NCBI RefSeq assembly: GCF_002237645.1
Contig: NZ_MJUZ01000001.1
Coordinates: 1-64,000, forward strand
Direction: 5' to 3'
DNA length: 64,000 nt
Origin: Desulfovibrio sp. MES5
Lineage (GTDB): Bacteria > Desulfobacterota > Desulfovibrionia > Desulfovibrionales > Desulfovibrionaceae
The notes under the pieces were generated by a model. That model was given only the letters and a program-made list of their open reading frames with translations. It did not search any database and was not told the DNA's origin. Below, piece after piece: positions 11,601 through 16,039 of the stretch. Position 1 is the first letter of the stretch; every line of letters starts with the position of its first letter. Both the position numbers and the translations under genes were made by a program.

Positions 11601-12126
11601 CGAGAATATCGCCCCGGCGCGCCATTTCTCCGGGCCGCGTGACCATGGTCACGCGCTCGTAGCCCCATTCCACGGCCTGATCGAGCAGTAGCTCGGGCGC
11701 ATAGTCGCTGCCCTTGCGCAGATCAAGATTGCGTGAAGAGAAGAAATTCAGGGGCACATGGCGCAGCAAAAGGCTTTCAACACTGCAAACCAGACAGCGC
11801 GGCTGTCCGAGGCCAAGACCATACAGGGCGGCCAGGCGCGCTGCCCACGAGGCTCTGTCCTGCCGCTGGTTCAAGGCGGGCAAGGCCAGGCAGGGGCTGC
11901 GCCACAAGGGTTCGGACAGGGGCTTTTCGCCAAGGGAAAGTTCCGGCGTAAAGAGCGTCAGCAATGCGCGGGCAAGCGTATACTCTTCACGTTCGCGCGC
12001 CACCAGAACCACTGTGCGCCCACGGGTCATGGCCTCAACGGCGAGACGGCAGCGCGTGGCCATGCCGCTGCGCTCGATGTATATCTGATTTTCCTGACTT
12101 GCCAGTACTGCGTTAAAACTGTCCAT
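8671..12126 (-). CDS. mfd: transcription-repair coupling factor Mfd
   Basis: Mfd removes stalled RNA polymerase and recruits UvrA. The 1151 residues match the family length. The N-terminal UvrB-homology region is followed by an RNA polymerase interaction domain (DLKPGDLLVHRDYGIGRFAG, about 480-500). The RecG-like helicase has Walker A GDVGFGKTE near residue 630 and DEEQRFG near 730. The C-terminal TRCF domain is present. The ribosome binding site before the ATG at 12126 is weak. The two SurA-like genes follow on the same strand. Confidence 0.97.
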   Translation of the reverse strand: MDSFNAVLASQENQIYIERSGMATRCRLAVEAMTRGRTVVLVAREREEYTLARALLTLFTPELSLGEKPLSEPLWRSPCLALPALNQRQDRASWAARLAALYGLGLGQPRCLVCSVESLLLRHVPLNFFSSRNLDLRKGSDYAPELLLDQAVEWGYERVTMVTRPGEMARRGDILDIFPAGYAKPVRLEFFGDTLDEMRVFDAESQRSLQGCDELTLLPASPLALDAKALTAARERCDRMFAEGRIGENECYSFKKSLDSGGIGLLPGSVLETTSFIEDWLPKDSLWLLPGEADSADALRDGRLSLKERLEAPDSPLPQPATLTLRKSSQPAPWNGFQRIYAEPLVMGVEERGLDLAERPLHSFTDLFPLPGAQDRPWQHLSSALKEWRNSRRQVVLSFSSGRSRAKFLKLAEQDGIIPAMRYAPDQKGLFVLVSPFRSGADLVWDDILVLGEDILYPKAEKTPRVSSRVFKGLDTFDDLKPGDLLVHRDYGIGRFAGLHHLDLNAAANDFLLVEYSGKDKLYVPADRLGLIQRFKGTEGVEPALDRLGGAAWVTGKEKARKAIEKIAADLVEMYAYRKVTKGFRYDPPGELYHEFEATFGFEETPDQAKAIQDVLDDMDKSSPMDRLVCGDVGFGKTEVALRAAFRAASEGRQVAMLCPTTVLAEQHYQTFRARLAGFPVNVGLLSRFVTRPKQKEVLKAAAAGQIDILIGTHRILSTDVKLPNLTLLILDEEQRFGVRHKEKLKALKKNVDVLTLTATPIPRTLQLSMSGIRELSIIETAPQDRKPVASAVLRRDDNVLRKVMEREMEREGQIFWVYNRVQGLERVAEYVRGLVPAARVGMAHGQMSETELEDTMHKFWHGELDVLVCTSIVESGLDFPRANTLVVDQAQMFGLGQLYQLRGRVGRSDRQAYAFFVVPDAERLTAVAEERLRIIMDMDYLGAGFQVAMEDLRLRGAGNILGEVQSGHMCRVGLDLYLEMLEEAVGRLKGMPESIVAETELTLGLPAHIPASYIDDGRERLRCYKALTSASGGAAREETALSIRDRFGPFPEELANFLAVLDFKQFLTELQVQKAEVRRESVRLTWPDGQTAVQPERIVALAASLPGARVLPPAGLALTLEKDVPFAQGLDRLRQALEDIRIPVAGQVSA

Positions 12127-12250
12127 TCACCCGTTCCAATGACCTGGCCGTTCTTCTTGCGCGGCCATGACGCGCGCGAACGATCCGCACAAAGTTTTAT
12201 ATGACGTGTGGTTATGAATCCCGAAAAAGAGTTTCGCCACAAAGTGACAA

Positions 12251-12274
12251 GGGGGCGGCCCTAAAGCCGCCCCC
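12251..12274 (-). terminator. GC-rich hairpin after the HesB-like gene
   Basis: GGGGGCGGC pairs with GCCGCCCCC across a 6-base loop, 24 bases past the stop of the Cys-form HesB-like gene. The following bases on the minus strand are only moderately T-rich, so termination strength is uncertain. Confidence 0.55.
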
Positions 12275-12297
12275 GGTCAACCGCATCTGTTTGCTTT

Positions 12298-12618
12298 TTA
12301 ATTGGTGCCGCAACCGCCGGAGCAGCCGGAGCAACCACCCGCGCTCTGAGGCAGGGGTACGCTGGGTTCCACCATAAAGCCCATATGGGTGAGGTCGATT
12401 TTTACGCCTTCAACCTGGGCCAGCAGATCTTTGTTGATGCAGAAGGTGAAGCCGCCCTGTTCCTCGCTCTGGTCCTCATCTGTGGCGGCGTCGAGGGCCA
12501 GCGCAAGGCGCGGGCCGCTGCAACCGCCGGGGGCAAGGTATATGCGGATATCGCTTTTGTCCTTGCCTTCAAAGTAGGCTGCCAGTTCTTTTTGAGCGCT
12601 TTCGGTAAGTTCGAGCAT
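12298..12618 (-). CDS. HesB/IscA-like iron-sulfur protein, cysteine form
   Basis: The 106-residue protein belongs to the HesB/IscA (A-type Fe-S carrier) superfamily. It has Cys33 in PGGCSGPRLALALD and Cys60 in FTFCINKD. The Cys-rich tail GGCSGCSGGCGTN (Cys96, 99, 103) replaces the usual CGCGxSF end. GGAGG precedes the ATG. It lies directly downstream of a paralogue in which the residue equivalent to Cys33 is encoded by UGA. A role in Fe-S cluster or metal handling is inferred from the family only. Confidence 0.9.
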   Translation of the reverse strand: MLELTESAQKELAAYFEGKDKSDIRIYLAPGGCSGPRLALALDAATDEDQSEEQGGFTFCINKDLLAQVEGVKIDLTHMGFMVEPSVPLPQSAGGCSGCSGGCGTN

Positions 12619-12709
12619 GGTTCCTCCATGATTTTTTCGGGTATATTATATATTCCGAAAAACAGGCTGAGATGCTTCATCGGCTGACGGGGAACCAGGC
12701 CCGTTTTGG

Positions 12710-13024
12710 TTAGTGGCTTCCGCAGCTTGAGCAGCTGCTGCAACCATCGCCTTCTGAAGCAAAGGGCACGTCGGGGGTGAGCGTGAAACCCATGTAGGTT
12801 AAATCCACAGAAACTCCCTTCACTTCATCGAGCAAAGACTTGCTCATGCAGAAGGTGTACCCAGCCTGTTCTTCGGTTACATCCTGGTCATTAGGCTCGT
12901 CCAGAGCCAGAGCGAGGCGCGGGCCGCCTCAACCAGCCGAGAGGTAAATCCGAATCGGATCCTTCTTCTTGTCCGCAAAGAAGGTATCAAGCTCCTTGCG
13001 GGCGTTGTCGGTCAATTGAATCAT
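12710..13024 (-). CDS. HesB-like selenoprotein (in-frame UGA = Sec32)
   Basis: A continuous 104-residue HesB/IscA-like protein is read if the TGA at 12931-12929 is translated. Ordinary ORF calling misses it. Before the UGA: MIQLTDNARKELDTFF, then IRIYLSAG. After it: GGPRLALALDEPNDQD, YTFC (Cys59) and the tail CSSCSSCGSH. The downstream paralogue has Cys33 exactly where the UGA falls. GGAGG lies about 6 bases upstream of the ATG. A SECIS-like hairpin sits at the right distance after the UGA. HesB-like selenoproteins are a known prokaryotic family, so Sec is far more likely than a pseudogene. Selenium-transport genes lie 1 kb away. Confidence 0.9.
12894..12908 (-). promoter_or_regulatory. bacterial SECIS-like hairpin
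   Basis: On the minus strand GGCTC-TGGAC-GAGCC forms a 5-bp stem and 5-base loop. The loop begins 26 bases after the UGA and has G at its second position. Bacterial SECIS elements typically have an apical loop about 16-37 bases after UGA with G in the first two loop positions, so this fits. It would bind SelB for selenocysteine insertion. Confidence 0.75.
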
Positions 13025-13152
13025 GATGTCCTCCATATTTCTGGTGCCCATAGTAACTAAGGCCATGCTTCTGCCTTGTCAATTGTCGGGGGACTTTTCT
13101 TCAATCACAAAAAGCTGTAGGGTTTTAGCAGGCAGATGCCACGGGAGGAAAC

Positions 13153-13692
13153 ATGAATACAACCCTGCTGCTTGAGCAGCACGAAATGGCGCGTATGCTG
13201 GAACGCCTGGCGTCCCAGATTATGGAGCGCCACGCCAAGTGCGACCATGTCATGCTGGTCGGCATTGAAAGGCGCGGCGCTGATATCGCCCGACGCCTGG
13301 CCGTCCTGCTTGAAGAACGCCTTGGGCATCCCGTGCTGCTGGGCACGCTGGACATAAATCTCTACCGTGACGACTGGACAAGCCTTGAAGGCAAACCCCA
13401 CATCGGGCAGTCACGCATACCGGCCAGTGTTGACGGGCGCGTCATCATTCTTGTGGATGACGTGTTGTACACGGGGCGCACCATACGGGCCGCCCTGGAA
13501 GCTCTGCTGGACTACGGACGCCCCAGAGCTGTGGAACTGCTGGCTCTCATTGACAGGGGGCACCGCGAACTGCCCATTCACGCGGATTATGTGGGCCGCA
13601 CGGTCAACACCAGCCGCCAGGAGCGCGTCGATGTGCTGCTGGCCGAACGGGACGGGCAGGACGCCGTGCACCTGACGGCAAGCCCCACATAA
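13153..13692 (+). CDS. pyrR: PyrR bifunctional pyrimidine operon regulator / uracil phosphoribosyltransferase
   Basis: PyrR proteins bind pyr mRNA in Gram-positives and convert uracil plus PRPP to UMP. The 179-residue protein has the PRPP-binding loop VIILVDDVLYTGRTIRAAL (about 97-115), an early catalytic region LVGIERRGADIARRL and the C-terminal GRTVNTSRQERVDV. GGAGG precedes the ATG. It diverges from the HesB-like selenoprotein gene. No pyr biosynthesis gene is adjacent, and in deltaproteobacteria an RNA-binding role is unproven. Confidence 0.92.
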   Translation: MNTTLLLEQHEMARMLERLASQIMERHAKCDHVMLVGIERRGADIARRLAVLLEERLGHPVLLGTLDINLYRDDWTSLEGKPHIGQSRIPASVDGRVIILVDDVLYTGRTIRAALEALLDYGRPRAVELLALIDRGHRELPIHADYVGRTVNTSRQERVDVLLAERDGQDAVHLTASPT

Positions 13693-14009: not shown

Positions 14010-15104
14010 ATGAAACAGTATTTCAACATCCTTTCCACCACTACTGGCATAGTTGTGGTGGGCCTTGTTTTCGGCATTTTGGCCGTATTGCTGCAACAGG
14101 CTGGCAATCCGGGCAATATGGGCATCTGCGTGGTTTGTTTTAACCGCGATATCGCCGGGGCTGTCGGTCTGCACAGGGCTGAAATTGTGCAATATCTGCG
14201 GCCAGAAATTATGGGCATGGTACTGGGAGCCTTTGCGGCGGCCATGCTCTTTGGCGAATACAAGCCCCGCGGCGGTTCCGCCCCCATCACCCGGTTTTTT
14301 CTCGGAGCCATCGCCGGTATCGGCGCGCTGGTTTTTCTGGGTTGCCCCTGGCGCGTCATCCTGCGCCTTGCCGGCGGCGACGCCCATGCGATCTTCGGAC
14401 TTGTGGGTCTTATCACGGGCGTCGGCATAGGCACCATTTTTTTTCGCATGGGCTTTTCACTGGGCCGCAGTCAGAATCAGGGCAAGATATCGGGCCTGCT
14501 GCTTCCCGCGCTCATGCTCGGCCTTGTGGCCTTGTACCTCGCTGACCCCCAGGTCATAGGCGAACTCAAGAGCGGCGTGCTCTTTTACTCCATCAAGGGG
14601 CCGGGCTCACAGCACGCGCCCTTTATCTTCTCCCTGTGCGCGGGGCTGGCCGTGGGCTTTCTGGCCCAGCGCAGCCGTTTCTGCACCATGGGCGCGCTGC
14701 GCGACGTCATCCTTTTCAATCAGTGGTATCTGGCCCTGGGCTTTATAGCCATGTTCGCGGCGGCTCTGGTCATGAATCTCAGCCTGGGCTCCTTCCATTG
14801 GGGATTTGAAAACCAGCCCGTTGCCCAGCCCGATGACCTCTGGAACTTTATGGGCATGGTTACGGCGGGGCTTGCCTTTGCGCTCGCTGGCGGCTGCCCT
14901 GGCCGCCAGCTGTTCATGGCTGGAGAAGGCGACAATGACGCCGCCGTCTTTGCGGTGGGGCTTATCGTCGGCACGGCCATGGCCCACAACTTCGGCATGG
15001 CCTCCAGCACTGCTGGCATCGGCCCCCACGGCATGGCCGCCACCCTGGCCGGGCTTGGGATTTGTCTGTTCGTCGGATTTTTCAACTGCAAGCGAGGCGC
15101 GTAA
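14010..15104 (+). CDS. yedE: YedE-type putative selenium transporter
   Basis: The 364-residue polytopic inner-membrane protein has about ten hydrophobic segments and the internal duplication of the YeeE/YedE family. The cysteine motifs FLGCPWRVILRLAGGD and GGCPGRQLFMAGEGD appear in the two halves, and QRSRFCTMGALRD lies between them. YedE proteins co-occur with selenium genes and are proposed to import a selenium species. GGAGG lies before the ATG. Its stop overlaps the next start (TAATG). The partner TusA-like and DUF3343 genes and the nearby UGA-containing gene support a selenium rather than thiosulfate role. Confidence 0.88.
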   Translation: MKQYFNILSTTTGIVVVGLVFGILAVLLQQAGNPGNMGICVVCFNRDIAGAVGLHRAEIVQYLRPEIMGMVLGAFAAAMLFGEYKPRGGSAPITRFFLGAIAGIGALVFLGCPWRVILRLAGGDAHAIFGLVGLITGVGIGTIFFRMGFSLGRSQNQGKISGLLLPALMLGLVALYLADPQVIGELKSGVLFYSIKGPGSQHAPFIFSLCAGLAVGFLAQRSRFCTMGALRDVILFNQWYLALGFIAMFAAALVMNLSLGSFHWGFENQPVAQPDDLWNFMGMVTAGLAFALAGGCPGRQLFMAGEGDNDAAVFAVGLIVGTAMAHNFGMASSTAGIGPHGMAATLAGLGICLFVGFFNCKRGA

Positions 15105-15322
15105 TGTCTGAACTTATTGATACCCGTGGCCTTTCCTGCCCGCAGCCGGTGCTGCTTTTTCTCAATGCCCTCAAGGGCGGTGCTGCGAGCTCCTTCAGCG
15201 TGCTGGTGGACAATGACGCCAGCCTTGAAAACGTCAGCCGCGCGGCCCGCAACCGGGGCTTCAGCGTCACGAATTCTGACGAAGGGCAGGGAGTCACCCG
15301 GCTGGAAATAGAAAAGTCCTGA
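15104..15322 (+). CDS. TusA/YedF-like sulfurtransferase domain protein
   Basis: The 72-residue protein matches the TusA fold. MSELIDTRGLSCPQPVLLF carries the persulfide-forming Cys12 in the Cys-Pro-x-Pro motif. In selenium clusters the equivalent YedF is often longer, with a C-terminal DsrE-like part; here only the TusA domain is present. The ATG overlaps the YedE stop by one base, so production is coupled to the transporter. The likely role is to carry S or Se as persulfide or selenopersulfide delivered by YedE. Family membership is clear; the selenium substrate is inferred. Confidence 0.88.
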   Translation: MSELIDTRGLSCPQPVLLFLNALKGGAASSFSVLVDNDASLENVSRAARNRGFSVTNSDEGQGVTRLEIEKS

Positions 15323-15394
15323 CATAACAATCCGCAGTTCTGCATGCGATAAACAGCCGGGCGGGCTTTGCCGCCCGCCCGGCAGGATACAGTA

Positions 15395-16039
15395 ATGGAC
15401 AACATGCCGAATACGAACAACAAGCCTTCCGGCGGGCTGCTCGGCAAGATGGGAAGCCTCCTGCGCGGATGGCGCGACAAAAACGCGCCGCCCGTTCCGG
15501 AAAGAAACACCGGCCCGGCAGGCGCTGGCAAGGCGCTCAGTGACAGGGGGCTGCTGGTCTTTTCCCATACGGGAGAGGTCATCAAGGCAGAGGGCCTGCT
15601 CCGTCAGGCGGGGCTTGCCGTTGAGGTCAAGGGGCCGCCGCCGCAATTGCGCACTGGCTGCGATATGGTGGTGGTTTTTGAGCTGGTCAGCCAGGCCGCC
15701 GTGCTGGAAGTTCTCAATAAGGCAGGCATCCGCCCGGAAAACGTCGTCACCGCCCACGATGTGCTGCTTGAGCCCGTGTCCCTGTTTCAGGTCAAGCGTC
15801 TGGACCACTGGCTCATGGTGCGGGCCGCCAACATGAAGATCACCCTGGACACGCGCGACGGGCGCATTGTAAATATTTCCGGCGGCGGCTGCCCGGATGT
15901 GCCGTGGCTAGCGCATTGCCTGTGCGGCATGCGGCTGGACGAAGCGCCGGAGCCCCGGAGCCTCGGGCAGACGCTGTGCTGCTACAGCCTGCAAAAGGCC
16001 TATGAAGAACTGCGGAGGCAATATCCGTGTGGTATATAA
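15395..16039 (+). CDS. DUF3343 protein with extra cysteine-rich C-terminal region
   Basis: The predicted 214-residue protein starts at ATG 15395 behind AGGA. Residues 1-45 are a low-complexity lead. Residues about 46-115 (LLVFSHTGEVIKAEGLLRQAG..RTGCDMVVVFEL) match DUF3343, a putative Se/S carrier domain found beside YedE/YedF. The C-terminal half (about 135-214) is unlike the short family members and has conserved-looking cysteines in GGGCPDVP, HCLCGM and LCCYSL. It overlaps the next gene by 13 bases. A role downstream of the TusA-like carrier is inferred from context. Confidence 0.75.
   Translation: MDNMPNTNNKPSGGLLGKMGSLLRGWRDKNAPPVPERNTGPAGAGKALSDRGLLVFSHTGEVIKAEGLLRQAGLAVEVKGPPPQLRTGCDMVVVFELVSQAAVLEVLNKAGIRPENVVTAHDVLLEPVSLFQVKRLDHWLMVRAANMKITLDTRDGRIVNISGGGCPDVPWLAHCLCGMRLDEAPEPRSLGQTLCCYSLQKAYEELRRQYPCGI

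Follow-up and report, generated by a model that had tools for sequence, protein, structure and literature searches.

A HesB-like gene with an in-frame UGA, probably encoding selenocysteine, in tandem with a cysteine paralogue in a Desulfovibrio

The window analyzed here, a 64,000-nucleotide stretch of a Desulfovibrio genome, raises the question of whether a reading frame with a stop codon in its first third is a broken gene or a complete one, and what that codon specifies. The frame runs from 13024 down to 12710 on the minus strand (12710..13024) and ends in TAA, and its sole break is a TGA at codon 32 (12929..12931, minus strand). With TGA read as selenocysteine (Sec, U) it translates into a protein of 104 residues (MIQLTDNARK...GUGGPRLALALDEP...CSSCSSCGSH), and directly downstream on the same strand the open reading frame list contains a paralogue of 106 residues (12298..12618). 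The two proteins are 56% identical over 89 residues that extend to both sides of the TGA, and pairwise and multiple alignments place Cys33 of the paralogue opposite it. The original prediction had described just such a HesB-like protein, continuous through TGA, similar to its neighbor before and after the stop, and with Sec in the place of Cys33, and it is borne out by the translation, the alignments, and a match to the NCBIfam model NF038090 above its cut-off. We conclude that 12710..13024 is almost certainly the gene of a HesB-like selenoprotein with the fold of IscA, an A-type Fe-S carrier; reading UGA as Sec is supported by the TGA/Cys alignment column, a conserved Sec insertion (SECIS) hairpin, and the presence of the Sec machinery in the genome. 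Judged from sequence, Sec insertion at codon 32 is as well supported as such data permit, and UGA may stop translation part of the time to give a peptide of 31 amino acids. What a naive reading would take for a broken gene is thus backed by comparative evidence as Sec-coding.

The Sec and Cys copies share a locus for 26 of the 33 Sec frames in the genus. Eighteen of the Sec frames have a Cys copy directly after them (56 to 261 nt from match to match) and none before, and in eight loci the Cys copy precedes the Sec copy. Between the two copies of the window, before the ribosome binding site of the Cys paralogue, is an AT-rich inverted repeat (TTTTTCGG...CCGAAAAA; 12633..12662, minus strand) of the form TTTTTCG...CGAAAAA, identified by folding, alignment, and motif scanning. 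The surrounding 113 nt fold more stably than 199 of 200 shuffles. On inspection by eye, the repeat can be recognized in this genome and in seven close relatives (G017, G058, G021, G023, G013, G042, and G052), and a shorter related repeat in three more (G025, G029, and G055). It is conceivable, and compatible with a Sec-coding gene, that the two copies form a selenium-responsive pair in which the Cys copy serves as a reserve that is induced through the repeat at low selenium; the shared loci, the distribution of the repeat, and its folding favor this, and Sec/Cys isoform switching is described for methanogenesis genes of Methanococcus maripaludis. We nonetheless consider it rather unlikely, as no repeat is seen by eye in G018, G026, G045, and others, the Cys copy comes first in the eight loci noted above, and the repeat is ruled out as a genome-wide regulator motif, occurring at three places in the genome versus 23 for the backward control. 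There is also a terminator-like site between the Cys copy and mfd (12250-12234, minus strand), one of six such sites in the region, compared with 1.8 in shuffles.

The selenoprotein gene lies about 1 kb from a row of genes of the selenium-uptake type (14010-16039, plus strand). The first of these, divergent from the Sec gene, codes for a putative selenium transporter of the YedE family (14010..15104; TIGR04112, 448.7 bits against a cut-off of 200). It is followed by a gene for a TusA/YedF-like sulfurtransferase domain (15065..15322; PF01206, 54.4 over 28.6), whose match to TIGR03527 covers the first 68 of 194 positions and, at 47.5, is under the cut-off of 110, and by one for a protein with a putative Se/S carrier domain (15398..16039; PF11823, 53.3 over 25), for which an NCBIfam scan gave no match. 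The pyrR gene (13153-13692, plus strand) is located between the Sec gene and yedE and is likewise divergent from the former. Among the loci from the genome search, yedE is present in 15 of 30 (L022-L036, all of the Sec type), and it is also in two of the six loci from the related-locus search. In the remaining 15 of the 30, nine of them of the Sec type, no yedE was found, the flanks being so short that this is weak evidence either way. A broader and quite speculative proposal is that the two HesB-like copies and the nearby YedE/TusA/Se-carrier cluster make up a selenium-status module, with the Sec copy used at high selenium, the Cys copy switched on through the repeat at low selenium, and Sec/Cys hetero-oligomers that may tie Fe-S or selenium handling to supply; we regard this as improbable.

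The reading of TGA as Sec draws on a comparison across relatives. We searched this genome and 100 relatives, of which 95 of the 101 have a match to the Sec protein, and took 110 loci covering 93 of the 95 matching genomes; with one duplicate locus left out, 109 remained. Calling homologous frames with every stop read as X gave 151 frames in these 109 loci, 80 without an internal stop and 71, from 70 genomes, with exactly one. That stop is TGA in all 71 and is at the same aligned place, and TAA and TAG each occur zero times as an internal stop among the 151 frames. Stops other than UGA in homologues, which the original prediction had named as telling against it, are accordingly absent at the Sec position from the 71 stop-bearing frames. 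The offset of the TGA is 31 in 49 rows, 32 in 17, and 34 in five, a spread accounted for by small upstream indels. The raw alignment column contains 69 TGA codons, 75 Cys codons, and six others in 150 rows. Two of the six are TGAs displaced by a one-residue deletion, so that the final count is 71 Sec, 75 Cys, and four others (two CCC, one AAG, and one gap). A contig scan with P0001 gave nine loci, six of Desulfovibrio sp. and three distant. We note that genome G099 (locus L091) has three consecutive HesB-like frames. One is partial and carries Lys where Sec would be, and the other two have TGA, the final one being divergent and lacking the Cys tail in its matched part.

The region 3' of the TGA evolves as coding sequence, as judged from its third-position bias: compared with four close relatives, 10 of 14, 13 of 21, 17 of 25, and 15 of 23 substitutions are at third codon positions. 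Constraint there is moderate, with 3, 7, 7, and 8 of 61 codons changed in the amino acid that they specify. These patterns bear on the possibility that the TGA marks a pseudogene or a sequencing error, that is, a Cys TGC or TGT mutated or misread in a decaying duplicate. The presence of the Cys paralogue next door could make the Sec copy dispensable, but the recurrence of this TGA in 71 frames from 70 genomes without a single TAA or TAG, the preponderance of third-position changes after it, and the invariance of three wobble bases within the SECIS hairpin (see below) reduce this possibility to a vanishingly small one.

The hairpin (12894..12908, minus strand) is formed by GGCUC (12908-12904), a UGGAC loop (12903-12899), and GAGCC (12898-12894), with 25 nt from the UGA to the loop, and is identified by folding, by pairs in register, by alignment, and by pair counts. 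The original prediction was right about the 5-bp stem and the UGGAC loop and misplaced them slightly: it is the loop that begins at base 26 after the UGA, and the stem begins at base 21. Published rules for bacterial SECIS elements specify a loop of 3 to 9 nt with G as its first or second base, a stem of 4 to 16 bp, a spacing of 16 to 37 nt, and a minimum free energy of at most -7.5 (PMC13188914). The expected match to these rules holds for the 5-bp stem, the 5-nt loop, the 25-nt spacing, and the energy, as the 25-nt hairpin stretch folds at -8.1 kcal/mol, with 5 of 200 shuffles folding equally well. For the longer stretches of 53 and 56 nt that follow the UGA, folding does not stand out from that of shuffles (z scores of 0.45 and -0.87), and an Rfam search at a lax threshold gave seven matches, all under their gathering scores.

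Conservation of the stem separates the Sec rows from the Cys rows. All five pairs are in register in 66 of the 71 Sec rows versus 5 of the 75 Cys rows, and at least four of the five pairs in 70 versus 17, respectively. Two Sec rows (G030 and G050) have GGCUC-UGGAU-GAGCC 3 nt earlier after a one-residue deletion, and three have an imperfect stem, G067 and G083 lacking only the outermost pair and the second, divergent copy of G099 lacking the second pair. Within the genus the outermost pair is G-C; U-A predominates in other families, and C-G occurs once. Both of its sides are changed relative to the commonest pair in 28 of 61 distinct rows, compared with 12.5 in shuffles, and the covariation score is 0.220 versus 0.074 in shuffles, with none of 500 shuffles as high for either measure; with the register slid by +1, the score is 0.133. 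Covariation is limited to this one pair of the five, three others being invariant, and its change tracks families and may therefore represent few events. On two other measures, the pairs changed on both sides and the additional pair types, the hairpin does no better than shuffles, 500 and 293 of 500, respectively, reaching the observed value. Codon usage in the hairpin is constrained as well: the wobble bases of Ala GCU, Leu CUG, and Glu GAG are invariant in the 71 Sec rows, while that of the loop Asp varies. By comparison, 23 of 75 Cys rows have GCU at the SECIS Ala, and in the adjoining mfd it accounts for 6 of 115 Ala codons.

The five Cys rows with all five stem pairs are G001, G009, G034, G044, and G047. 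No selB match was found in G001 (89% complete), G009 (98%), or G047 (99%), whose Cys copies are in loci L051, L038, and L123, respectively, fitting Cys copies derived from Sec after loss of the Sec trait; these are likely recent Sec-to-Cys conversions. In G034 and G044, selB is present, and the stem sequence of G044 differs. For Desulfitobacterium, HesB-like genes of the Cys type with remnants of SECIS-like structures have been reported earlier (PMC1794560). Together, the 71 Sec and 75 Cys rows make up a natural series for the study of SECIS evolution.

The genome codes for everything that the original prediction asked to be checked, selA, selB, selC, and selD, including the two whose absence it had named as contrary evidence, selB and selC. 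The selA match scores 583.5 bits; that of selB scores 312 bits, above the cut-off, in a 685-aa open reading frame; and tRNA-Sec scores 75.8 bits and is called by ARAGORN as tRNA-SeC with the anticodon TCA. The selD match (318 bits; L018, 1501-2448) has one internal TGA, and selD is thus probably a selenoprotein gene too. With tRNA-Sec, selA, selB, and selD all in the genome and Cys occupying the aligned place in 75 of the 79 non-TGA rows, readthrough of UGA as another amino acid, without selenium, has the in-frame TGA and nothing further in its favor and a negligible probability. Both this reading and that of a pseudogene or error are rejected on TGA conservation, the Cys column, and the Sec machinery. 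By the mechanism established for bacteria, the mRNA hairpin 3' of the UGA would bind SelB carrying Sec-tRNA(Sec), and the ribosome would then insert Sec at residue 32 instead of stopping.

The distribution of selB agrees with that of the Sec form. Of the 101 genomes searched, this one included, 80 have selB above its cut-off, versus 2 of 14 control genomes, and among the 93 genomes with fetched loci it is in 68 of the 70 with the Sec form versus 9 of the 23 without (Fisher P = 5e-9, uncorrected for kinship). The two Sec-form genomes without a selB match are G017 and G020. The former (locus L023; 99% complete), with a Sec protein 95% identical to that described here, retains the TGA gene, selA, and tRNA-Sec, and against a 4.1-kb stretch containing selB it has only partial matches, at 64 to 72% identity, to the neighbor gene of selB. 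Since this assembly is without the neighbor gene too, the absence of selB likely reflects a gap in the assembly or the recent loss of the entire stretch. In G020 (79% complete), selA is present, and neither selB nor tRNA-Sec was found above the cut-off.

Both copies qualify by score for NF038090 (IscA_HesB_Se; cut-off 85), the Sec protein with 91.1 and the Cys paralogue with 105.3 bits, and for Pfam PF01521 (cut-off 26.3), the Sec protein narrowly with 26.7 and the paralogue with 33.3. Both are under the cut-offs of TIGR01911, TIGR00049, and the models for IscA, SufA, and ErpA proper. For TIGR01911 (HesB_rel_seleno), the UxGP motif is present in the Sec protein as UGGP at residues 32 to 35, but by score (34.3 versus a cut-off of 66.35) the protein is outside this subfamily, and it falls well short of IscA proper (TIGR02011; 20.1 versus 150.6). 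A six-frame PF01521 search of the genome gave no matches and no candidates, its first pass probably being too strict for the HesB-like family. An AlphaFold2 model built from eight sequences has a mean pLDDT of 80.9 and a pTM of 0.66, with the tail (residues 92 to 104) under 50. A fold search with the model gave IscA as the best match (1x0g, E value 7.6e-07; 1s98, TM score of 0.69 over the query), with SufA also among the best. The predicted fold is that of Escherichia coli IscA (1r94 and 1s98), at 26% identity in the fold match, and residue 32 coincides in position with the first conserved Cys, which in 1r94 we take to be Cys35, a cluster ligand. The C-terminal tails differ, CSSCSSC here, a CxxCxxC motif formed by C95, C98, and C101, versus CGC in 1r94. 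Most likely, Sec32 acts with this Cys tail in binding an Fe-S cluster or iron, or in Sec/Cys redox chemistry.

The original prediction implied novelty for this gene, and here it does not stand: the family is published for Desulfovibrio and has its own NCBIfam model, NF038090. A 2006 survey lists 11 HesB-like selenoproteins, including those of D. vulgaris and D. desulfuricans (PMC1794560), and DVU_1382 of D. vulgaris is described in 2007 as a HesB family gene with TGA (PMC1914089). The Sec gene described here shares family name and genus with these, and with DVU_1382 the TGA as well, and they are likely its orthologues. It is thus a well-supported representative of a family that is already known, also for this genus. 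A 2026 review lists the HesB-like family, with motif UxGP, under TIGR01911, and reports that RefSeq and GenBank annotate selenoproteins in substantial numbers, with HesB-like as its example of a RefSeq selenocysteine query (PMC13188914), which makes it doubtful that standard annotation at NCBI would miss the gene, as had been suggested. The HesB-like selenoprotein of M. maripaludis is known from mutagenesis and 75Se labeling; a disruption mutant was unimpaired in nitrogen fixation, and the protein's function is there called not clear (PMC11097638).

The tandem Sec/Cys pair makes the function of a HesB-like selenoprotein testable in a genus with cultivable members. Upstream of the Sec gene (13025-13100, minus strand), a TTGACAAG block is conserved across an alignment of 12 genomes from the genus, and a TTAGTTA-like block in most of these 12. 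A sigma-70 promoter scan of 12000-13300 returned no site, and despite this empty scan the relatives align on a TTGACA-containing block 5' of the Sec gene.
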